From positions 1 through 33,057 of the forward strand of contig JAATFU010000006.1 in NCBI GenBank assembly GCA_015655045.1: a stretch of DNA of 33,057 bases, read 5' to 3'. Below are positions 10,604 through 21,944 of the stretch, one piece after another (position 1 is the stretch's first letter; the number at the start of each line of letters is the position of its first letter). The stretch comes from Candidatus Saccharimonadota bacterium. GTDB taxonomy: Bacteria > Patescibacteriota > Saccharimonadia > Saccharimonadales > Saccharimonadaceae. The notes under the pieces were generated by a model, which had not been told where the DNA came from, ran no database searches, and was given only the letters and a program-made list of their open reading frames with translations. Position numbers and translations under genes: made by a program.

Positions 10604-11167
10604 CTATTCCACATCCGGTGCCTTTGGCTTAACTGTCTTGGTGACAGGGGCAGTTTCAATATTTGTTTCGTTGGGCGTTACGACAAACTCCTCACGGCGA
10701 GTGAAGGAAATACCCTCGACCGCCTCGGCCTGCATGCGGTTTTTACTCATTGCTTGCCTATCGATCGTCTCCTTAGTGCGGATGAACTGGGTAAGACCCA
10801 GCTTCTTGAGGCGCTGAATCACGACCTCGGTCTTACCGCGAATGGAGACTGCAAATGGCGTGAACCGCCATTGCAATGAGCCGTGCGCCAGAGAGACGAG
10901 CTTGGTACGGCCGTCGTTTGTTAGTTCTGCGCGATTATATTCTGCGTAGACCGACAAATTCTGGACCAGCTCTTTGATCTCATTGTCGATTGGCCCGACT
11001 GCTACACGAGCATCTTCGGTGAGTGCATCGATTTGCTGCCTTGTCACGTCAAGGATTGATGTCCGATCTCGCTGAAGTTGCGCAATGCGTGCAATCGCAC
11101 GATCAGCTTCTTCCTTGTCGTTATATATGGGTGCCGCGGGTATCTTTACCCGACGCGCTGTCGCCAT
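10604..11167 (-). CDS. Mu Gam-like host-nuclease inhibitor / DNA-end-binding protein
   Basis: The protein has 187 residues, close to the Gam family length. The N-terminal half is a long charged helix (about 17-75) of the kind that forms the dimeric coiled coil. The core contains LAHGSLQWRFTPFAVSIRG then VVIQRLKKLGLTQFIRTKE (about 93-133), matching the family pattern of an S/W-rich strand, a V-x-I/V-R-G turn and an L-G-L-x-x-F-I-R-T-K-E helix. Phage Mu Gam binds double-stranded DNA ends like Ku and shields them from exonucleases. No phage structural genes are seen nearby. The last 30 residues are Pro/Thr/Lys-rich and probably disordered. It is the third gene of a minus-strand cluster; the preceding stop is immediately before ATG 11167. 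Confidence 0.85.
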   Translation of the reverse strand: MATARRVKIPAAPIYNDKEEADRAIARIAQLQRDRTSILDVTRQQIDALTEDARVAVGPIDNEIKELVQNLSVYAEYNRAELTNDGRTKLVSLAHGSLQWRFTPFAVSIRGKTEVVIQRLKKLGLTQFIRTKETIDRQAMSKNRMQAEAVEGISFTRREEFVVTPNETNIETAPVTKTVKPKAPDVE

Positions 11168-11750: not shown

Positions 11751-12809
11751 ATGGGAACGAAGGTAGATCATACACTTGAACTCAACAAGGTTCTCGAAGC
11801 TTTTTTCGAGCACAACATCCATACGGCACAACTCATTAGCCCGCATTATGAAGCTTTGTGGACTGAGATGCGGCGACTGATACGATCAGGCGGAAAACGA
11901 CTCAGACCGAAGATGACACTACTAGCCTATGAGGCATTTGGCGGACATGACTGTACGGCAATCCTGCCTATTGCATCTGCTCAAGAACTACTTCATCTCA
12001 GTATGTTGATCCATGACGACATTATTGATCGCGACTACATTCGCTATGGCGTCGATAACATTGCCGGTGGATATAACACTATATATGAACCATTTGTCTC
12101 CGACACCACAGATAGGCTACACTACGCCCACAGCGCCGCCCTACTTGCTGGCGATTTGCTTATCTCTGGAGCATACGAGCTCATCACCCAAAGCACCGTG
12201 TCACTCCCGAAAGTCATCGAAATACAACGCTTGTTTGCACAAAGTATGTTTGAGGTTGCCGGTGGAGAATTACTCGATACCGAATCATCCTTTCGCGAAC
12301 TGGGAGCAATTAGCGCCGAGCTCGTTGCGCGCTATAAGACAGCGAGTTACACCTTTGTAGGCCCGCTCGTTATTGGAGCAACACTGGCTGATGCATCAGT
12401 GCGGGATGTAGCCTATGTTCGTTCTTTTGCCGAGAATATCGGTATTGCTTTTCAGCTCCGTGATGACATTATTGGCGTGTTCGGTGATGAGGAACAAACA
12501 GGGAAGTCAGTCACTGGTGATATTCGTGAGGGTAAACGAACTTATATGATTGAGCAATTTACCCAACACGCGACGACACAACAACGTCTTATTTTTGATC
12601 ATAGTTTCGGTGACCAATACATTAGCACGAACGAGCTTACAATACTAAAAGATCTCCTTATCTCTTCGGATGCTAAACGCAGGACCGAGCAGGCTATAGC
12701 CGCCTATGGCACGAAGGCTCGTCACGCCTTACGACACTTAACTATTGCCACTGAGTTTAAAGAACAACTTGAAGAGTTGATAGCGGTCGCAACGGAGCGC
12801 GAGAAGTAA
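11751..12809 (+). CDS. crtE: Polyprenyl (geranylgeranyl) diphosphate synthase, CrtE
   Basis: The protein has 352 residues and belongs to the trans-isoprenyl diphosphate synthases. GGKRLRP lies at 47-53, the first Asp-rich motif DDIID at 89-93 and the second (RDDIIG) at 237-242, so the catalytic Mg-binding sites are intact. It condenses IPP onto DMAPP/FPP to make GGPP, the C20 precursor for phytoene. It heads the carotenoid operon. ATG 11751 has no Shine-Dalgarno; a four-codon leader ORF stops 3 nt upstream and may feed ribosomes by reinitiation. The stop overlaps the crtB start (TAATG). Product chain length is inferred from context; no IPP-forming genes are in the window. Confidence 0.93.
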   Translation: MGTKVDHTLELNKVLEAFFEHNIHTAQLISPHYEALWTEMRRLIRSGGKRLRPKMTLLAYEAFGGHDCTAILPIASAQELLHLSMLIHDDIIDRDYIRYGVDNIAGGYNTIYEPFVSDTTDRLHYAHSAALLAGDLLISGAYELITQSTVSLPKVIEIQRLFAQSMFEVAGGELLDTESSFRELGAISAELVARYKTASYTFVGPLVIGATLADASVRDVAYVRSFAENIGIAFQLRDDIIGVFGDEEQTGKSVTGDIREGKRTYMIEQFTQHATTQQRLIFDHSFGDQYISTNELTILKDLLISSDAKRRTEQAIAAYGTKARHALRHLTIATEFKEQLEELIAVATEREK

Positions 12810-13642
12810 TGGAACTATATACAGAGACCTCGTATGCAATAGGGAAGTTTATTACAAAACGTTATTCAACTTCGTTTAGCGCGAGTAGTCGTCTCTTTGC
12901 GTCTCGCATTCGACCCCATATCTATGCTATTTATGGACTCGTTCGTATCGCCGATGAAGTGGTCGATACGTATGGCGGTAGCGATAAAGAGCAGATTCTT
13001 CGCGAACTACAACAGGAAGTTGTTACCGCCCTTCGACGAGGCTATAGTACTAATCCTGTCGTGGAGGCTTTTACCCTCACAGCGATACAATATAAGATCG
13101 ACGCATCCTTGCTCGAGCCATTTTTTAAGAGTATGATGATGGACCTTCAGCCTATAACCTATACCGACAAATTATATAAGGATTATATTTATGGGTCAGC
13201 AGAAGTTATTGGTCTAATGTGTTTGCGGGTATTTTGCCACGGAGATGAAAGACTGTATCGGAATCTCGAAAAGGGTGCTCGCGCCCTCGGATCGGCTTAC
13301 CAAAAAGTGAACTTTCTTCGCGACATGGCATCCGACTACCGAGACTTGGGACGAGTTTACTTTCCGCATGTAACCTTCGAGGGGTTCAATGACCAAGACA
13401 AGCAACGTATCATCGTCGGCATAGAGAAAGACCTTACGATTGCCAAACGAGCAGTTAGAGATTTACCGATGGGGAGTCGCCGCGCGGTTGAGATGAGTGT
13501 TGTCTATTACGAGGCACTATTACGCAAATTAAAGCTTACCCCGGCTAAAGTTCTTCAACAAAGACGTATACGTATCAACAATGCCCATAAGCTTATGCTG
13601 TTTGCGGCGTCTTTAAAACGAAAGTTAAGTCATGTCTCGTAA
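12809..13642 (+). CDS. crtB: Phytoene synthase CrtB
   Basis: The protein has 277 residues of the squalene/phytoene synthase family. Both Mg-diphosphate-binding motifs are present: DEVVD (49-53) and DMASD (172-176), the latter within the typical NFLRDMASDYRDLGRVYFP region. It condenses two GGPP to phytoene, the first committed carotenoid step. Its start overlaps the crtE stop and its end overlaps the crtI start by 11 nt, so the genes are translationally coupled. It is slightly shorter than many CrtB proteins but complete. Confidence 0.94.
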   Translation: MELYTETSYAIGKFITKRYSTSFSASSRLFASRIRPHIYAIYGLVRIADEVVDTYGGSDKEQILRELQQEVVTALRRGYSTNPVVEAFTLTAIQYKIDASLLEPFFKSMMMDLQPITYTDKLYKDYIYGSAEVIGLMCLRVFCHGDERLYRNLEKGARALGSAYQKVNFLRDMASDYRDLGRVYFPHVTFEGFNDQDKQRIIVGIEKDLTIAKRAVRDLPMGSRRAVEMSVVYYEALLRKLKLTPAKVLQQRRIRINNAHKLMLFAASLKRKLSHVS

Positions 13643-15149
13643 AAAGGTAGTGATTATTGGCGCAGGAATTGGCGGCTTAGGCGTTGCCAATCTCCTCGCA
13701 AAGGCAGGGTACGAAGTACATGTGTACGAAAAGGATACTCAACCCGGTGGGCGAGTAGGCAGGAAAGCCGAAAAAGGCTTTACGTTTGATACCGGACCAT
13801 CCTGGTATTTAATGCCTGAAGTGTTTTCGCATTACTACGATCTCTTAGATGAATCAGTTGACGCATCGCTCACACTCACTAAGTTAGTGCCAGCCTACAA
13901 AGTTTTCTTTGAACATACCGAGCCAATAACTATAACGAGTGAGCTCGAAAAGGACGCTGCGTCGTTTGAGATAGTCGAGAAGGGAGCGGGTGAGCGCCTT
14001 AAAAAGTATGTCGCCCGAAGTAAAGAGATATATCGTCTGTCACTAGATCATTTTCTCTATACAAACTTTGAATCCTTGACTGATTTTATGCATCAAGCAG
14101 TGCTCAAAAAAATTGGACTTTTGCCCAGATTACTTGCCCAATCAATTGACAGCTATATTGGTAGCTATGTGAAGAATCCTCGACTAAAACAAATTCTCGA
14201 ATACACTATGGTATTCTTAGGCACTTCGCCATTCACCGCACCGGCTATGTATAGCCTAATGAGTGCTCTAGACTTTGACGAAGGCGTGTATTATCCGCAG
14301 GGTGGTCTCTATACTATTATTGAAAGTCTCGTCTCGATCGGTGGTGCACTAGGCGTCACATACCATTTTAAGAGTCCCGTAAAGCGCATCATTACCATAG
14401 CTGGACACGCTTCGGGTGTCCTGCTTAGTGATGGCGTAGAAGTGAGGGCCGATATCGTTATCTCAAATGCCGACCTTCATTTTACGGAGACCTCTTTACT
14501 TCCATTACAATATCAAACGTACCCGCAACGCTATTGGAAGCATAGAGAACCCGGTCCAGGAGCTCTACTCATTTATCTTGGTATCAACAAAAAGCTTCCC
14601 CAGCTTGAACATCATAATCTTTTACTAGTTGATGCCTGGAAAGAGAATTTTGATGCCATTTATCGGACAAAATCAATTCCAAAACATGCTTCAGTCTACG
14701 TGTCGGTGACGAGTCGAACCGATCCATCGGTTGCTCCCACGGGTCATGAATGCGTTACCGTACTCGTGCCACTCCCGAGCGACCTCACCCTATCCACTCA
14801 TGAGATAGCGAAGCTGGTAGACCACTATATCAATCAAATTGAAGAGACCACGAAGTGTACTATAAAAGACCATATTGTCACTAAAAGTGTCTTTGAACCG
14901 AGTGACTTTAAAGATTTGTTTTATTCATGGCACTCATCAATGCTCGGCCAATCTCACATCTTAAAGCAAAGTGCTTTCTTTCGAACTTCTAATAAAAGTA
15001 AAAAGATAGATAACCTCTATTATGTCGGTGCGAACACGACACCGGGGATTGGCCTTCCGATGTGTTTGATTAGTGCTGAGCTTGTGTATAAGCGACTCAT
15101 TGGTGATAAAAAGGGTGGGCGCGTAGCCTATATACGGAAGCAGTGGTGA
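13632..15149 (+). CDS. crtI: Phytoene desaturase CrtI
   Basis: The protein has 505 residues, normal for bacterial CrtI. The N-terminal FAD-binding GxGxxG (10-15) is followed by the Glu of EK (33-34), GGRVGR (39-44) and DTGPSWYL (53-60). The C-terminal signature YYVGANTTPGIGLPM is at 463-477. It introduces four double bases-pairs of unsaturation into phytoene to give lycopene at the membrane. It overlaps crtB by 11 nt and its TGA overlaps the ATG of the next gene (15149). No truncation or frameshift is seen. Because it sits with C50-type cyclase and elongase genes, lycopene is likely an intermediate rather than the end product. Confidence 0.94.
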   Translation: MSRKKVVIIGAGIGGLGVANLLAKAGYEVHVYEKDTQPGGRVGRKAEKGFTFDTGPSWYLMPEVFSHYYDLLDESVDASLTLTKLVPAYKVFFEHTEPITITSELEKDAASFEIVEKGAGERLKKYVARSKEIYRLSLDHFLYTNFESLTDFMHQAVLKKIGLLPRLLAQSIDSYIGSYVKNPRLKQILEYTMVFLGTSPFTAPAMYSLMSALDFDEGVYYPQGGLYTIIESLVSIGGALGVTYHFKSPVKRIITIAGHASGVLLSDGVEVRADIVISNADLHFTETSLLPLQYQTYPQRYWKHREPGPGALLIYLGINKKLPQLEHHNLLLVDAWKENFDAIYRTKSIPKHASVYVSVTSRTDPSVAPTGHECVTVLVPLPSDLTLSTHEIAKLVDHYINQIEETTKCTIKDHIVTKSVFEPSDFKDLFYSWHSSMLGQSHILKQSAFFRTSNKSKKIDNLYYVGANTTPGIGLPMCLISAELVYKRLIGDKKGGRVAYIRKQW

Positions 15150-15451
15150 TGACTCATATCTTTTACTGTGCCGCCTTAGTGATCGCTATCTGTGGCTTAC
15201 TCGTGCTTGATGCTCAATATAAACTCGCATTTTGGTACGATCACTTACGAACGATAAAAGTTTTAGGGATTGGTATGACTGTGTTTATTATCTGGGATAT
15301 TCTCGGCATTCTCCTTGGCATTTTTTCACACGGCGACAGTCTCTATTCACTCCCTTTCGTGATTGCGCCTAATTTTCCCATTGAGGAGTTGCTGTTTCTA
15401 TTTGTATTCACATACACTACTCTGATTCTATATCGAGGCGTGAAAGCATGA
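15149..15451 (+). CDS. crtYe: Heterodimeric lycopene/C50 carotenoid cyclase subunit, CrtYe/CrtYc type
   Basis: 100 residues from ATG 15149 (GTG 15143 would add two). It has three transmembrane helices and the cyclase-domain signature FPIEELLFL at 76-84. In actinobacteria two such small proteins together cyclise lycopene (CrtYc/CrtYd) or C50 precursors (CrtYe/CrtYf). The start overlaps the crtI stop (TGATG) and its own stop overlaps the next start (ATGA). The C50 assignment depends on the prenyltransferase two genes downstream; ring type (beta, gamma or epsilon) cannot be read from sequence. Confidence 0.85.
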   Translation: MTHIFYCAALVIAICGLLVLDAQYKLAFWYDHLRTIKVLGIGMTVFIIWDILGILLGIFSHGDSLYSLPFVIAPNFPIEELLFLFVFTYTTLILYRGVKA

Positions 15452-15738
15452 GTACATACCTAATCCTAAATATTATTTTCGTTCTGACGATCTGTATTAT
15501 CTTTCGCATAAGAGGACAACGACCAACCAAACGCGCTTTTGTTATAGCTCTGTCGCTCCTGACGCTGACATTTATCTTTGATTCCTTACTGGTTTATTTT
15601 CACATTGTCGAGTATGCTCTGGATCGCACCATAGGACTACGGGTTGGACTGGCACCAATTGAAGACTATTTCTATCCCGTACTTGCACTAATATTAATAC
15701 CTTATTTATGGAAACGACTCGGTAAGAGGCATGCGTAA
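15448..15738 (+). CDS. crtYf: Heterodimeric lycopene/C50 carotenoid cyclase subunit, CrtYf/CrtYd type
   Basis: 96 residues, three transmembrane helices, with the signature GLAPIEDYFY at 67-76 that marks the second subunit of the heterodimeric cyclase. It should pair with the product of the preceding gene, which supplies the FPIEE motif. A 4-nt overlap on the 5' side and an 8-nt overlap on the 3' side keep the two subunits and the prenyltransferase in fixed proportion. The acidic pair in PIED is the presumed proton donor site in this family. Confidence 0.87.
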   Translation: MSTYLILNIIFVLTICIIFRIRGQRPTKRAFVIALSLLTLTFIFDSLLVYFHIVEYALDRTIGLRVGLAPIEDYFYPVLALILIPYLWKRLGKRHA

Positions 15739-16588
15739 CACAATGACAAAACTATTCTTTGTTTCTCGGCCTGTTTCTTGGGTCAACACCGCCTACCCGT
15801 TTGTAGCGGCGTACCTTATTTCGGGAGGTGAACTTTCCTTAACCTTTTTCGTCGCAGCAATTTACTTTCTCATTCCCTATAATCTTCTCATGTACGGCGT
15901 CAATGATGTGTACGATTACGAGTCCGACATTCGTAATCCGCGTAAGGGCGGCATTGAAGGCATGAAAGAACAACGTGCATTTCACCCAACCATTATCCGG
16001 GCAGTGTTTTATTCAAACGTACCATTTGTCTTGTATCTACTCCTACGGGGCACGGCGGTATCTAATACTATTCTCCTCGTGCTCCTTTTCTTTGTCGTAG
16101 CCTACTCGGTCGTCGGATTGCGCTTTAAAGAAAAGCCCTTTCTCGATTCTATTACGAGTAGTATCCACTTCGTTGGACCACTTATCTATGGCCTATCAAT
16201 CACGTCTATTACTGTCGCGGCATGGCCATTTGTGATTGCTTTCTTTTTATGGGGTATGGCAAGCCATGCCTTTGGGGCAGTTCAAGACATCATTCCCGAT
16301 AGGGCAGGTAAGCTATCGTCAATTGCTACCTTTTTAGGGGCACAAAAAACAATTATCATGTGCGTTTTGCTCTATCTTATAGCGTCGAGTATTGTTATCT
16401 TACAAGGCTTTCCTGTAGCTATTGCAGGTATAGCAGGACTCATCTATGCCATAAATGCCGCACTCTATATTCGCCTAGATGATAAGTACTCTTTTCAAGC
16501 GAATGCTGGCTGGCGACGCTTTATATGGCTTAATCTTGTAGTAGGCTTCCTTATAACTATGATCATAATAATAAAAGCAATCCAGTAG
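15731..16588 (+). CDS. crtEb: UbiA-family prenyltransferase, probable lycopene elongase CrtEb
   Basis: 285 residues with 7-9 transmembrane helices. The first Asp-rich motif NDVYDYESD (58-66) runs into IRNPRKGGIEG, a pairing I associate with lycopene elongases, and the second motif DIIPD is at 186-190. Such enzymes add DMAPP-derived C5 units to both ends of lycopene, giving C50 flavuxanthin-type carotenoids that CrtYe/CrtYf then cyclise. It is the last gene of the operon, overlapping crtYf by 8 nt, and the order equals that of the Corynebacterium glutamicum decaprenoxanthin operon without its transporter gene. A different UbiA role (quinone or archaeol-type lipid) is less likely given the operon. 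Confidence 0.87.
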   Translation: MRNTMTKLFFVSRPVSWVNTAYPFVAAYLISGGELSLTFFVAAIYFLIPYNLLMYGVNDVYDYESDIRNPRKGGIEGMKEQRAFHPTIIRAVFYSNVPFVLYLLLRGTAVSNTILLVLLFFVVAYSVVGLRFKEKPFLDSITSSIHFVGPLIYGLSITSITVAAWPFVIAFFLWGMASHAFGAVQDIIPDRAGKLSSIATFLGAQKTIIMCVLLYLIASSIVILQGFPVAIAGIAGLIYAINAALYIRLDDKYSFQANAGWRRFIWLNLVVGFLITMIIIIKAIQ

Positions 16589-16604: not shown

Positions 16605-16632
16605 AGACCTCCAATCTTAAGATTGGAGGTCT
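16605..16632. terminator. Hairpin ending the carotenoid operon and the tRNA-Gln transcript
   Basis: 12-bp perfect inverted repeat: AGACCTCCAATC, TTAA loop, GATTGGAGGTCT. There is no long T-run on either side. It lies between convergent transcripts. Confidence 0.65.
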
Positions 16633-16646
16633 AAATAAAGCATACT

Positions 16647-16721
16647 TGGCTGGGATGGAGGGATTCGAACCCCCGAATGCCAGAACCAGAACCTGGTGCC
16701 TTACCACTTGGCGACATCCCA
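16647..16721 (-). tRNA. tRNA-Gln (anticodon CUG), CCA encoded
   Basis: On the minus strand the 75-nt sequence folds into a full cloverleaf: 7-bp acceptor TGGGATG/CATCCCA, D arm GCC-AAGTGGTAA-GGC, 5-bp anticodon stem with a 7-nt loop TTCTGGT (CTG at 34-36), T arm GGGGG-TTCGAAT-CCCTC, discriminator G and encoded CCA. It begins with U1 paired to A72, a glutamine identity feature. It reads CAG codons. Confidence 0.93.
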
Positions 16722-16763: not shown

Positions 16764-18080
16764 ATGAGCAAAAAAACTTTACCTATTGTCACCGTTACCC
16801 TCGATAAGATCGTCGGTGGGGGACAAAGCCTTGGCACCCTTGAGGGTGGCCGTAAAATCTTTGTCTGGGGTGGTCTCCCTGGCGAAACAGTCAACGTCCA
16901 AATGACTAAAAAGAAATCAAATCTTGCCGAAGGAACTGTCGTGGAAGTAGATATGCCAAGTTCAGAGCGTATTCCGGCTCGCGATGAGGATAGTTTCTTG
17001 TCAACCAGTCCGTGGCAAATTATGACTTTTGAGGCCGAACAGCACTATAAAGCAGCCCTCATCGAAGAAGCTTTTGAGCTTCACGACATCGTCCTTGATG
17101 ATACCATCACGGTCTATACCGATGAAAAACAATATGAGTATCGCAATAAAATTGAGTTTAGTTGGTATTGGGATAAAGAAAGTGATCAACTCGACCTATC
17201 ATTTTTTCGTCGCGGCACGCACGGGAAAATCCCTGTTGAGGGCACAAGCTTAGCTCACCCAGGTATTAATCGAGCCGCCCAGGCTATGCGCGATCTTCTG
17301 CGCACAAAGCCAGATTTACGAGCGTACATGCTAAAAACTCTTTTAGTACGCTGTGATGCGGCAGGGAATGTTGCCCTACAACTGTACGTCAAAGAACAGT
17401 CCTTCATTCAGCTAACTGGCCCAGAACTTGAAGGTCTACACGAGAATGGAAATATTATTGGTTTTGAACTTATTTTCTCAAATCCAAAAAGTCCTGCCAG
17501 CGTTATTACCGAACGCCTACAGGCCTGGGGCACTACCAATCTAACCGATACGATTCTGGATGTCCCTTTTACATACGCCGTTGAAGGATTCTTTCAGATT
17601 AACCTACCCGTATACGAACAAGCTTTGCGCGATATGCAACAATGGGTAAGTGATAAACCTGTTGTCGATCTGTATAGTGGAGTGGGTACAATTGGGTTAA
17701 CCATTGGCGGAGAAAACGTCACCATGGTCGAAATTAATGAGCACGCTGTTCGTGAAATGAAGCGCAATATTACTGCACTTGAACGCGAGAAGACAATCCA
17801 AGCAATTCTCGCTCCAAGCGAACAAGCTCTTGAGTATATCACGAGTGATCGTACTATTATCGTTGACCCACCACGCGCCGGTCTTCATGAAGATGTCACG
17901 ACCAAACTACTTGAAGCAGCTCCTAAGCGGATTATCTATCTTTCCTGTAATCCTGTCACTCAGGCTCGTGACGTTGCTCGTTTAAGTGAAAAATACGGTA
18001 TCCGAGCCCATCAAGGGTATAACTTTTTCCCACGTACACCGCATATTGAACACCTTGTCGTCCTTGATCTAAAGAGATAA
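16764..18080 (+). CDS. RNA uracil-5-methyltransferase (RlmD/RumA-TrmA family), TRAM domain, without Fe-S cysteines
   Basis: 438 residues. An N-terminal TRAM RNA-binding domain (about 5-62) is followed by the central domain and a class I SAM-methyltransferase: VVDLYSGVGTIGL for SAM binding, IIVDPPRAGL, and the catalytic cysteine in YLSCNP (Cys395). It forms 5-methyluridine in 23S rRNA or tRNA. The four cysteines that hold the 4Fe-4S cluster in E. coli RlmD are absent; the corresponding stretch after the TRAM domain (DSFLSTSPWQIMTFEAEQ) has Ser/Thr instead. This resembles cluster-free paralogues found in other bacteria. Substrate (rRNA or tRNA) is therefore left open. The start is leaderless. 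Confidence 0.9.
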   Translation: MSKKTLPIVTVTLDKIVGGGQSLGTLEGGRKIFVWGGLPGETVNVQMTKKKSNLAEGTVVEVDMPSSERIPARDEDSFLSTSPWQIMTFEAEQHYKAALIEEAFELHDIVLDDTITVYTDEKQYEYRNKIEFSWYWDKESDQLDLSFFRRGTHGKIPVEGTSLAHPGINRAAQAMRDLLRTKPDLRAYMLKTLLVRCDAAGNVALQLYVKEQSFIQLTGPELEGLHENGNIIGFELIFSNPKSPASVITERLQAWGTTNLTDTILDVPFTYAVEGFFQINLPVYEQALRDMQQWVSDKPVVDLYSGVGTIGLTIGGENVTMVEINEHAVREMKRNITALEREKTIQAILAPSEQALEYITSDRTIIVDPPRAGLHEDVTTKLLEAAPKRIIYLSCNPVTQARDVARLSEKYGIRAHQGYNFFPRTPHIEHLVVLDLKR

Positions 18081-18137: not shown

Positions 18138-19883
18138 ATGAACTATAGCGCAAGCAGAATCAGCCGTGGTTTTACCCTCGTTGAGATTCTAGTTGTGGTG
18201 GCCGTGATCGGCGTCTTAGCTACTATTGGTATTATGGGATTTTCAAAGGTCCAAGCAGGATCACGAGATGCTCAAAGATCAGCAAGTATGACAACTCTAG
18301 CTGAAGCACTCGAAAAATATTACGATCAAAATGGCGAGTATCCAAGCTGTGCAGCCCTCACGCCAAGTAACCCTGTCACTGTGACAACAACCGTACTAAA
18401 GGGTGCTGACCCAACCATTTTGACAGCCCCACATGGTGTTAGTGGAACAAACTCGTTAACCTGTTCTGATCTCTCTGCAGGATCAGGCCCTGATGCCTAC
18501 GCTTATATTGGGGATGGGAGTGCAAGCTGTAGCACCGGCACCTCTTGTTTGAAATATACTCTTAAATACCGCGAAGAGACCACGGGTAATATTATCTCAC
18601 TCGCCAGTCGGCACACCGCCGCAATTGCTACTTCTGGTGCCGCCACACTAAGCGCCACGGCTACAAGCTATACGGCTGTTAACCTCTCGTGGTCATTAGT
18701 CAGTAACGCTACAAGTTATATAATCCGAGCAGCCACTGATAGCAACTTTACAAATGCAGTTGGCACGCCGCTAACCACAACTCAAACATCCGCCGCCTAC
18801 ACCAACCTGACTGCTGCTACTACCTACTATTTCCAAGTTGCTGCCATCTCGAATGCAGGCGTACAAGGCGCATGGTCAAACATTGCCCGCGCTACTACGT
18901 ATACGCCTTTAGCTGCTCCAACAAACCTAGTTGCAACTGGAACATCTTCAAGCCAAATCAGCGTCACCTGGGCTACCGTGTCCGACGCTTCAACGTATAA
19001 CCTCGAATATGCCGCCAATACTAGCTTTACTAGCTCAACTACCATAACAGGAATAACAGGGACAAACAAAGTGATCACCGGACTTACATCGGGCCAAGCC
19101 TACTATTTCCGAGTGTACGCACTTTCAACAAGTCCCGTCCGAACAAGTCCGGCTTCAGCAACCGCCACCGGTATTACTTTAATTGATACGCCAAGTGCGC
19201 CAAGTGTTTCCTTGACCACGCCAAACTCTTCTTCGACCACCTATAACTGGACAGTCGTGACATGCTCGGTAGGAACAGTACGCTATCGCTACCAATATAC
19301 GATTGACTATAGCAGTCTTTATACCACCAACTGGTATTCAACTACGGCTTTGTCTTCCAGCTACAATACTTCAGATGAAGGGTATCAATATAGTGTCTAT
19401 GTCCAAGCACAATGTTATAACAGCGCCACCTCAAGCGCATGGAGCAACTCAGGTACTGCGAATTACATTCGACCCGTTCAACCGCCGAGCGCCATTAGTT
19501 ATAGTATCTCTCGTCGGGGTACCGATAACCAAGCTTGGGCTATGGCCACAATAACTTGCGGTATCGGAGCTAGTGTCTATGCTCGAGCTGATCTATATAC
19601 AGGCGACATGGTCTGGACCGACTCGGGTCAACTTGGATGGTGGTCAAATTCACATGGCGGTACCTGGTCTAGTCCGAATTGGCAGCTATGGGGGAGTAAA
19701 GTTAGCCTGGGTTCTCAGCGTGGCACGGCTGGGGCGACTATGACAACGGGGTGGCGCTGGGATATCGCTGTCGATGCTTATTGCGGCAATACTACAACAG
19801 GTCGCGCAAGTGCAACCATTGGCCGCCACGAGGGACCAGTCATGTCTCTTCCTGCAGACCCTAATCAGGAAGTATTTTATTAA
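18138..19883 (+). CDS. Pilin-like surface protein with fibronectin type III repeats
   Basis: 581 residues. A short basic leader ends in Gly11, followed by FTLVE (Glu at mature +5) and a hydrophobic helix: a prepilin signal. A pilin-type head (to about 165) contains EKYYDQNGEYPSC and conserved Cys pairs. Then come two clear fibronectin III-like repeats (about 165-260 and 262-350; NLSWSLVSNATSYIIRA, TTYYFQVAAIS) and two further Ser/Thr/Tyr/Trp-rich beta domains to the end. It is likely displayed outside the cell as a pilus-associated adhesin. Its paralogue lies at 20352-21944. It is coupled to the small membrane protein that follows. Confidence 0.9.
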   Translation: MNYSASRISRGFTLVEILVVVAVIGVLATIGIMGFSKVQAGSRDAQRSASMTTLAEALEKYYDQNGEYPSCAALTPSNPVTVTTTVLKGADPTILTAPHGVSGTNSLTCSDLSAGSGPDAYAYIGDGSASCSTGTSCLKYTLKYREETTGNIISLASRHTAAIATSGAATLSATATSYTAVNLSWSLVSNATSYIIRAATDSNFTNAVGTPLTTTQTSAAYTNLTAATTYYFQVAAISNAGVQGAWSNIARATTYTPLAAPTNLVATGTSSSQISVTWATVSDASTYNLEYAANTSFTSSTTITGITGTNKVITGLTSGQAYYFRVYALSTSPVRTSPASATATGITLIDTPSAPSVSLTTPNSSSTTYNWTVVTCSVGTVRYRYQYTIDYSSLYTTNWYSTTALSSSYNTSDEGYQYSVYVQAQCYNSATSSAWSNSGTANYIRPVQPPSAISYSISRRGTDNQAWAMATITCGIGASVYARADLYTGDMVWTDSGQLGWWSNSHGGTWSSPNWQLWGSKVSLGSQRGTAGATMTTGWRWDIAVDAYCGNTTTGRASATIGRHEGPVMSLPADPNQEVFY

Positions 19884-19894
19884 GGAGTGGGACT

Positions 19895-20278
19895 ATGAGA
19901 ACACAACACATCAATTTTAAAAAACCCTTCTATCTGACCCTTGGAGCCATTGTTCTTGTTATACTGGTTGGCCTTGCTTCTGTATTTGTTCTTAAAGCTC
20001 TCCAGGTAGCTACCCCAACACCTCAGAACACCTCATCTACGCCGAATGCTTCACCACCAACAAGTGCTCAAGCTGATAAACTTCAACTACAAGCAGCTCA
20101 GGCGATCAAAGATAAAGATTTCGTAAAAGCCAAAGCGCTCTACCAACAGGCCCGAGATGCATACGTTAAGCTCAATAACCTTGACGCAGTGGCAGATATT
20201 GATAATCAACTATATAAACTTGACCATCCGGAGCCAAGCCCAACTCCCGTCAAACCCGTTCTCCTTATCTCGGGCTAA
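19895..20278 (+). CDS. Membrane-anchored protein with TPR-like segment
   Basis: 127 residues. A basic N-terminus, one transmembrane helix (about 12-35), a Pro/Thr/Ser linker (36-58), then a helical hairpin (about 59-108: AIKDKDFVKAKALYQQARDAY) with TPR-like spacing, and a Pro-rich tail. The helical part should face outside. AAGGAG 7 nt before ATG 19895 and only 11 nt after the pilin stop show it is in the same operon, so it may help anchor or assemble the preceding pilin-FN3 protein. Family not recognised. Confidence 0.75.
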   Translation: MRTQHINFKKPFYLTLGAIVLVILVGLASVFVLKALQVATPTPQNTSSTPNASPPTSAQADKLQLQAAQAIKDKDFVKAKALYQQARDAYVKLNNLDAVADIDNQLYKLDHPEPSPTPVKPVLLISG

Positions 20279-20339
20279 CGATGGGGATAACTTTCATAAT
20301 TTCATAACAGATTGTGTGTCTTATTCGTCCGAATTTTGC

Positions 20340-20345
20340 TACAGT
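20340..20345 (+). promoter_or_regulatory. -10 of the second pilin-FN3 gene
   Basis: TGC-TACAGT ends 6 nt before ATG 20352. The same TACAGT-N6-ATG arrangement is found before the paralogue at 18138. Confidence 0.5.
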
Positions 20346-20351
20346 GGAAGG

Positions 20352-21944
20352 ATGAGGCATACCATAAGAAGAATAACGAGCGGCTTTACCCTCGTTGAAG
20401 TTTTAATTGTGGTTGCTATTATCGGTATCCTCGCCACCATTAGCATAATAGGGTACTCAAAGATACAGGCAGGCGCAAGGGATACCCAACGTTCGACAAG
20501 TATTACGGCTACCGCTGAGGCACTCGAAAAATACTATGACCAAAATGGGGAATATCCAAGTTGTGCTGCGCTTACAAAAAGTCCTTCTGTCGTTATCGCA
20601 ACGACACTGCTCGGACTTGACCCTACCGTACTTGCCGCACCCCGGACTACTGTTGGCACCAACTCGTTTACTTGTAATAGTCTAACAGCGAGTAGTGGAG
20701 ACGTCTTTGCCTACGTAGGTGATGGAAGTTCTACGTGCCTCACAGGAACTTCGTGTCTTCAATACACTCTTCAATACCGCGAGGAAACGACTGGTAATAT
20801 TATCAGTCTTCAGAGCCGCCATTCTACACAAATAGCCACTTCGGGGATCGCCGTGCTTCAAGCCGCCACGCTTGACTTTACCCAAATGAATCTTACCTGG
20901 ACGGCCGTTCCCAATGCCGCCAGTTATACTATCCAATATTCTCCTGCTGCTTCATTTGCAAGTGGTGTAGTCACACAAACAAACGTCGTTGGTCTCTCGA
21001 CCACTGTGCATGGTTTAACATCTGGAACAAAATATTACTTTCGAATTGCCGCCGTCTCACCGGGTAGCCAAGGCAATTGGTCAAACATTGCCAGTGATAC
21101 CTTATGGACATTATCCGCCCCAACTATTACAAGCACGAGTGCGACCGCAGTAAACTTTACGGCGACCTGGTCAACCATCTCACATGCCATAACCTATACC
21201 GCTCAATGTTCAACGGATAATAGTTCATGGACAGGGTGCAATAATCAGGGTCTTACTGCAACGACTTTTACCTTTCCAAACGCCATTCCTGGAACGCTAT
21301 ATTACATCCGTGTCCAAGCTGTTAATGGTAGTTTCTTGAGCCCCTGGTCAAGTTCAGTAACAGCCGTCACGACTATTCCTGCCCCAACGAATGTCCAAGT
21401 AGTGTCAAACTCAGCTACCCAGGTTACCGCCAGTTGGACTGCTGTTCCCAATGCCCAAACCTATAAAATTGAATACGCCTATACTACCAACTTTAGTCCT
21501 CTACTCGGTACCGCAAGTACAACGAGCCCAACCATTGTGTTTAGTTCTCTCGGTCAGGGACAATTAGTATCTGTTCGAGTCTACGCACTCATAGGCACCG
21601 CCTCAAGCCCCGCCTCCGTGCCGGGCAGTAGTGTGACACCTATTAATCAACCAGCAGCGCCAACGTATGCTGGGCCCGCTTCGTTTACAAATCGCGTCTA
21701 CGCCATCGTTAACTACCAATCATATTGTCCCGCCGGGACCAGCCTCTATAACGGTAACTTTACCAGTGAATTCACCTCTTCTGGCGCCTACTATGGACCA
21801 CATCCATTTGGTTACAATGACTGGTGGGATTTAGGGTCAACTACTGTGAATGTTTATTACTGGGGACGCTACCAGTGTCAAACAGCCAATACGACATCGC
21901 CTGTCTCGCCCGACTCCTTCACTACTATTAATGTTCACTTTTAG
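20352..21944 (+). CDS. Pilin-like surface protein with fibronectin type III repeats (paralogue)
   Basis: 530 residues from ATG 20352. The open frame extends far upstream, but the prepilin signal (basic leader, Gly11, FTLVE) fixes this start. The head is very similar to the 18138 protein (EALEKYYDQNGEYPSCAAL, YREETTGNIISL), with matching cysteines. Three FN3-like repeats follow (about 165-255, 256-345, 346-435; MNLTWTAVPNAASYTIQY, QVTASWTAVPNAQTYKIEY), then a Tyr/Trp-rich C-terminal beta domain unlike that of the paralogue. Conserved base and divergent tip suggest different targets for the two proteins. The mRNA seems leaderless. Confidence 0.9.
   Translation: MRHTIRRITSGFTLVEVLIVVAIIGILATISIIGYSKIQAGARDTQRSTSITATAEALEKYYDQNGEYPSCAALTKSPSVVIATTLLGLDPTVLAAPRTTVGTNSFTCNSLTASSGDVFAYVGDGSSTCLTGTSCLQYTLQYREETTGNIISLQSRHSTQIATSGIAVLQAATLDFTQMNLTWTAVPNAASYTIQYSPAASFASGVVTQTNVVGLSTTVHGLTSGTKYYFRIAAVSPGSQGNWSNIASDTLWTLSAPTITSTSATAVNFTATWSTISHAITYTAQCSTDNSSWTGCNNQGLTATTFTFPNAIPGTLYYIRVQAVNGSFLSPWSSSVTAVTTIPAPTNVQVVSNSATQVTASWTAVPNAQTYKIEYAYTTNFSPLLGTASTTSPTIVFSSLGQGQLVSVRVYALIGTASSPASVPGSSVTPINQPAAPTYAGPASFTNRVYAIVNYQSYCPAGTSLYNGNFTSEFTSSGAYYGPHPFGYNDWWDLGSTTVNVYYWGRYQCQTANTTSPVSPDSFTTINVHF

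Follow-up and report, generated by a model that had tools for sequence, protein, structure and literature searches.

Identification of a carotenoid operon

The stretch of DNA analyzed here, referred to throughout as the window, is contig JAATFU010000006.1 (33,057 nt) of genome GCA_015655045.1 (G000), which comprises 848 kb in 8 contigs, has an estimated completeness of 99.2% and shares its family with genomes whose deposited name is Candidatus Saccharibacteria. Positions 11751-16588 hold six intact open reading frames (ORFs), arranged head to tail with neighbors sharing 1-11 bases, which are predicted to encode a cyclic C50 carotenoid pathway. Pfam and NCBIfam hidden Markov models (HMMs), used independently of structure prediction, assign the genes as follows:

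11751..12809, + strand: crtE, trans-polyprenyl (geranylgeranyl) diphosphate synthase (PF00348, 157 bits)
12809..13642, + strand: crtB, phytoene synthase (PF00494, 142 bits)
13632..15149, + strand: crtI, phytoene desaturase (TIGR02734, CrtI family, 495 bits, cut-off 238)
15143..15451, + strand: crtYe-like, first half of a heterodimeric cyclase, GTG start (TIGR03462, 41.6 bits, cut-off 39.4)
15448..15738, + strand: crtYf-like, second half of a heterodimeric cyclase (TIGR03462, 40.0 bits, cut-off 39.4; PF18916, 31 bits, cut-off 27)
15731..16588, + strand: crtEb-like lycopene elongase of the UbiA superfamily (NF009608/PRK13105, 390 bits, cut-off 217)

An earlier note on this DNA had described six overlapping, intact genes here in the order crtE-crtB-crtI-crtYe-crtYf-crtEb, and the ORFs, HMM matches and conserved motifs bear this out. 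CrtE is the only PF00348 protein, that is, the only trans-prenyl synthase, found by a search of the genome, and its DDxxD motif is present in all 34 Saccharimonadial copies checked. The CrtB motifs D(E/D)xxD and RDxxxD are kept in 33 and 34 of 34 relatives, respectively. Both small cyclase subunits of the window carry PxE(E/D), which is conserved in 42/42 relatives of the CrtYe-like half and 44/44 relatives of the CrtYf-like half, and the elongase motifs NDxxDx(E/D)xD and QDxxxD are retained in 44/44 and 43/44 relatives. The ratio of nonsynonymous to synonymous substitution (dN/dS) is 0.07-0.18 for the crt genes in the few pairs with unsaturated dS (most pairs being saturated), indicating that these genes are evolving under purifying selection. 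The six-gene arrangement is far beyond chance, because the identical order recurs in genomes of the window's own order and in Micrococcales. No conserved seventh gene was found in the operon at the own-order loci, and a promoter scan gave fewer matches than in shuffled sequence.

The UbiA protein is of the lycopene-elongase rather than the quinone type, as the earlier note had proposed from its motifs, on the strength of its NF009608 score and of its position in the UbiA tree, where it places with operon-encoded copies from Micrococcales. A quinone or lipid UbiA enzyme was considered and rejected; the other NCBIfam UbiA-type models all score under their cut-offs, and the tree agrees. The model for LyeJ-type elongases of bacterioruberin synthesis (PRK12875) likewise stays under its cut-off (138 bits against 205). 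Bacterioruberin loci lack a cyclase and this one has both cyclase genes; a genome-wide search for CruF was not made.

Predicted pathway and product

We consider it likely that the six genes form a single operon for the downstream part only of a cyclic C50 carotenoid pathway, for which isoprenoid diphosphates would be imported. In the predicted route, CrtE would make geranylgeranyl diphosphate (GGPP), two molecules of which would be joined by CrtB to phytoene, and CrtI would desaturate phytoene to lycopene. The UbiA/CrtEb enzyme would then add two C5 units to lycopene, giving a flavuxanthin-type C50 diol, and the CrtYe/CrtYf-type heterodimeric cyclase would close both ends to a product resembling decaprenoxanthin, sarcinaxanthin or C.p.450. 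Carotenoids usually stiffen membranes or protect against oxidants, and the pigment may serve the parasite's own membrane as both antioxidant and stiffener.

This type of pathway is already known, its rare pigments having been described elsewhere from soil actinobacteria, and the Saccharibacterial setting is what is new. Gene deletion and reconstitution in Corynebacterium glutamicum established that CrtB, CrtI, CrtEb and CrtYe/Yf take GGPP to decaprenoxanthin by way of lycopene and flavuxanthin (PMC3598387). The operon of that species, crtE-cg0722-crtBIYeYfEb, encodes all six enzymes in an unchanged order with the elongase last; it differs from the window in possessing cg0722 (the window has 6 of the 7 genes) and in belonging to a cell with a 2-C-methyl-D-erythritol 4-phosphate (MEP) pathway (PMC3598387), which the window's cell lacks. 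The earlier note had recognized the C. glutamicum order less one transporter gene, and the match to that cluster without cg0722 stands; the Micrococcales operon consists of these six genes alone. When taken from different bacteria and expressed in Escherichia coli, the same enzyme set yields C50 carotenoids with epsilon, gamma or beta rings (PMC6393565). By homology and gene order the product of the window's operon should be a cyclic C50 carotenoid, of a ring type that is not predictable.

Isoprenoid precursor supply

Precursor supply was assessed in carriers of the operon, defined as genomes with a PRK13105 elongase over the cut-off in a sample of 393 genomes across the class Saccharimonadia, and in noncarriers. 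The genome of the window is without a MEP and without a mevalonate pathway, an absence that rests on searches for IspH and the GHMP kinases rather than for every pathway gene; HMG-CoA reductase was not searched. GHMP kinases (MVK, PMK, MVD and IspE) were found neither in this genome nor in 45 of the 46 genomes searched, with positive controls, the exception being one unidentified match in the carrier G117. IspH was absent from all 45 genomes searched, the window's included, with control genomes matching as expected, and the genomes free of IspH and GHMP kinases include several single-contig carriers. Independent support comes from the report that classes of the candidate phyla radiation (CPR) other than Gracilibacteria show only the C10-C20 isoprenoid steps (PMC9166423).

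Because neither pathway is present, prenyl diphosphates, either isopentenyl and dimethylallyl diphosphate (IPP and DMAPP) or farnesyl or geranyl diphosphate (FPP or GPP), would have to come from outside, presumably from a host cell, and the carotenoid precursors probably arrive by the same supply that feeds the genome's UppS. UppS is encoded by 42 of 45 genomes, carriers and noncarriers alike, including that of the window. Since it occurs without MEP or mevalonate pathways in both groups, reliance on prenyl diphosphates from outside is a general trait of the group and was not created by the carotenoid operon. Five noncarriers (G050, G084, G018, G036 and G041) have UppS yet no trans-prenyl synthase, and also give no IspH or GHMP-kinase match; unless UppS works differently there, they would have to import an allylic diphosphate, for example FPP, in finished form.

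Type 1 IPP isomerase occurs in 10/40 carriers against 23/353 other genomes (Fisher p about 6e-4, uncorrected for relatedness), the carriers concerned being mostly in family f30. Type 2 was found in one carrier, and a second carrier matched it partially. Such carriers would be able to interconvert imported C5 units. Neither type was found in the window's genome. The earlier note had seen no isoprenoid synthesis and proposed that C5 units come from a host. The absence of MEP and mevalonate pathways agrees with this, but the proposal needs correcting in that the dependence is group-wide and extends to genomes without the operon, and in that the sequence does not show whether C5 units or longer prenyl diphosphates would be imported.

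Several points weigh against the predicted pathway. Product and expression are predicted from the genes, the CrtI step presupposes an electron acceptor in the cell, and the two cyclase halves score barely over the TIGR03462 cut-off, a threshold that cannot tell C40 and C50 cyclases apart. Lacking an IPP isomerase, this cell would also require either IPP together with DMAPP or prenyl diphosphates of greater length, and we are aware of no uptake system for such compounds.

A product other than a cyclic C50 carotenoid, arising if elongase or cyclase act differently, seems to us unlikely; it could be beta-carotene or another C40 carotenoid, a C45 compound, or a C50 carotenoid without rings. The cyclase matches are generic, ring type and chain length cannot be read from sequence, and related enzymes give differing ring types and mixtures (PMC6393565), all of which would accommodate such an outcome. 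However, the elongase is kept together with both cyclase genes in every complete locus. Rhodopsin, which would use retinal derived from beta-carotene, was not found over the cut-off in any of the 47 carriers searched, which argues against a retinal purpose; the control genomes also gave no match, so this search had no positive control. That the precursor pathways exist and are merely missing from an assembly split into 8 contigs is barely credible given its completeness of 99.2%, the absence of IspH from 45/45 and of GHMP kinases from 45/46 genomes with single-contig carriers among them, and the independent statement for CPR classes (PMC9166423).

A cyclic C50 pathway on imported precursors remains the preferred interpretation. 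A reduced parasite with a five-step pigment pathway and neither standard precursor route would have to draw prenyl diphosphates continually from its host, by a transport process that to our knowledge nobody has described. As a C50 pigment is colored and distinctive by mass spectrometry, it would make the flow of carbon from host to parasite directly measurable in co-culture. The rhodopsins of Saccharibacteria, which depend on outside retinal (PMC9296517), are similar in having an isoprenoid-derived light-absorbing component that relies on another organism; in that case a finished cofactor is taken up, whereas the cell studied here would build its own pigment from small precursors.

Other isoprenoid genes were seen in the sampled genomes. 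A divergent UppS-like protein (118-136 bits against the usual ~250) replaces the usual UppS in G060, G110, G116, G127, G158, G373 and G012, and in G116 its gene adjoins a second trans-prenyl synthase. Members of the window's genus that lack the crt operon have another isoprenoid gene cluster (L195:6421-10601 in G140; L189:254-3420 in G266), which in G140 comprises a polyprenyl synthase, a type 1 IPP isomerase, YjbQ, a small membrane protein, one UbiA enzyme without an NCBIfam match at E 1e-8, and a CMAS/GPP-methyltransferase-like enzyme. IPP isomerase genes of same-genus relatives without the operon are found in G141, G205, G227, G314 and G384.

Distribution within the Saccharimonadia

Elongase carriers make up about one in ten of the sampled genomes (40/393) and are spread over several families and orders; within its own genus, the window's genome is the sole carrier sampled. 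Forty loci were fetched for comparison of gene order, 24 of them belonging to the window's own order with the standard arrangement or cut by contig ends. The order crtE-crtB-crtI-crtYe-crtYf-crtEb is identical in 21 of these 24, the remaining 3 being cut by contig ends. The own-order operon proteins are 36-63% identical to those of the window, and the neighborhoods of the operons are mostly unconserved. Two further own-order genomes, G012 and G340 (L068 and L069), have distant, differently arranged versions.

In other orders (families f30, f34, f35 and f36) the cluster is divided, with crtYe-crtYf-elongase on one arm and crtI-crtE-crtB on a second, divergently oriented arm; nusG and rplK are neighbors of several such clusters. 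In f30, f34 and f36 (L057-L061, L063-L067) the elongase is fused to an extra C-terminal domain, which in the two members scanned is a family-2 glycosyltransferase (GT2) related to CruG/HpnB, a fusion suggesting that elongation of a C50 carotenoid is coupled to its glycosylation. Wherever a locus is complete, the elongase gene stays beside both cyclase genes. One locus, L078 (SEAL01000015.1), is titled 'Chloroflexi bacterium PMG_070' and matches at 66%; we take it as Saccharibacterial because of its 1.1-Mb genome, its Saccharimonadial tree position and its neighboring genes, which match those of the carriers L040 and L046.

The one precedent that we found for carotenoid genes in Patescibacteria is bacterioruberin. 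Genes for its synthesis (lyeJ, crtD and cruF) were reported from Lake Baikal Patescibacteria, one Saccharibacterium among them, with membrane adaptation as the proposed role (PMC9948471). The Baikal genes resemble those of the window in being Patescibacterial and in specifying a C50 carotenoid through a UbiA-type lycopene elongase. They differ in that bacterioruberin is acyclic and its genes include cruF and no cyclase and are partly scattered, in contrast to the single operon of the window with its CrtEb-family elongase and heterodimeric cyclase. Family f9 (G068 and G287) resembles the Baikal type, G068 having a LyeJ-like PRK12875 elongase and a CrtID-like desaturase. No report of a cyclic C50 operon in Saccharibacteria, or of its class-wide spread, was found in the open-access literature (subscription journals and preprints were not covered).

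Origin and transfer of the operon

In a scan of named species genomes (one per species, 84,980 species), the nearest relatives of the elongase beyond Patescibacterial contigs are almost only Actinobacteria, mainly Micrococcales. The C50 operons of Micrococcales (Arthrobacter, Glutamicibacter, Microbacteriaceae and Cellulomonas; among L086-L153) have these six genes and no others, in identical order, and are the nearest non-Patescibacterial relatives of the window's operon. They differ in forming a separate clade, with elongase identities of 49-55%, and in belonging to free-living organisms that generally have their own precursor pathway, as C. glutamicum has the MEP pathway (PMC3598387). The nearest actinobacterial elongase is 55% identical to that of the window, compared with up to 66% for other Saccharibacterial copies.

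The actinobacterial sequences form one clade (support 95/89 for UbiA; 99 for CrtI, apart from an aberrant long-branch copy, L173, in that tree; 100 for the concatenated proteins), which stands beside or inside the Saccharimonadial diversity, and the Saccharimonadial copies are not nested in it. With the root placed on distant elongases, including haloarchaeal ones, several Saccharimonadial lineages split before the group of own-order and actinobacterial copies (100/99 branch). Under approximately unbiased (AU) tests, neither a single Saccharimonadial clade for UbiA (p 0.10) nor a single clade of own-order copies (p 0.38 concatenated, p 0.79 for CrtI) is rejected. The GC content of the window's operon (44%) and its GC at third codon positions (GC3) match its own genome, and across carriers operon GC tracks that of the flanks (38-61%). 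Together the trees indicate one old transfer between the phyla, in either direction, and the operon would have been exchanged within the Saccharimonadia while sharing one old ancestor with that of the Micrococcales. The species of the window most likely received its copy from another Saccharimonadial lineage.

A direction from parasite to host, with the Saccharimonadia as the older home and the Micrococcales as recipients, is possible, if still the less probable view, and is compatible with the predicted function. It would fit the early-branching Saccharimonadial lineages under the distant outgroup (100/99), the position of the cluster beside nusG/rplK in one order, as expected of a long-resident locus, and the incidence of the elongase over the cut-off, in 40/393 Saccharimonadia compared with 7/346 Actinomycetota. 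Against it, the AU tests leave the single-clade alternatives unrejected (p 0.10, 0.38 and 0.79), and the outgroup is distant enough for long-branch effects. The fuller scenario, in which the Saccharimonadia are an old reservoir of the operon, make the pigment wholly from host prenyl diphosphates, pass the genes among themselves and were their source for Micrococcales, relatives of the likely hosts, is somewhat more speculative.

Recent acquisition from an actinobacterial host of this lineage, raised as an idea in the earlier note, is disfavored and in our estimation highly improbable. In its favor, Actinobacteria are the hosts of known Saccharibacteria, Micrococcales share the gene order exactly, the operon lies at a tRNA-Gln site where the side away from RlmD differs between same-genus relatives, and the rest of the sampled genus is without the elongase. 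A recent transfer from such a host is nonetheless unsupported because the actinobacterial copies form one clade (UbiA 95/89, CrtI 99, concatenated 100) with the Saccharimonadial copies outside it; the elongase is also closer to Saccharibacterial copies (66%) than to any actinobacterial one (55%), and operon composition follows each carrier's own genome. The wide, patchy distribution and the single actinobacterial clade make the operon useful for testing how genes move between Saccharibacteria and their hosts.

No match to the operon was found among phages, and the plasmid search returned one Arthrobacter plasmid plus haloarchaeal elongases. An actinobacterial-type C50 operon nested among those of Micrococcales is present in Sporosarcina beigongshangi (L126, Bacillota), by recent transfer or contamination.

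Genomic site of the operon

Three features lie to the right of the operon:

16605..16632, no strand assigned: hairpin with a 12-bp perfect stem between operon and tRNA-Gln, scoring as terminator-like on the minus strand only
16647..16721, - strand: tRNA-Gln(CTG), right border of the site, with sequence on the side away from RlmD that varies among same-genus relatives
16764..18080, + strand: RlmD-like rRNA methyltransferase, a conserved backbone gene and anchor of the right flank (same-genus identity 68-86%)

Synteny with same-genus genomes extends along the right flank, through tRNA-Gln, RlmD (68-86% identity) and type IV pilin-like proteins and, in several of them, hyp162 and UvrD, which shows that the contig is not actinobacterial. 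Actinobacterial contamination was considered and is ruled out by the 848-kb genome, the syntenic flank and dozens of relatives. The small genome, the family kinship and the RlmD-pilin-UvrD synteny also uphold the Saccharibacterial assignment that the earlier note had thought probable. The side of the tRNA-Gln away from this flank differs among the same-genus genomes, and the operon is there in none of those fetched. Because no att-like second copy of the tRNA-Gln 3' end, as left by integrases, was found in the window, we read the locus as a variable site and not as a proven island.

A Mu Gam-like protein (119 bits; 10604-11167, - strand) adjoins the operon and may be a mobile-element remnant at this site. 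Large ORFs (368-1597 and 18138-21944) carry the N-terminal motif of type IV pilins, with fibronectin type III domains in one or more of them, and may encode pilins for attachment to the host.

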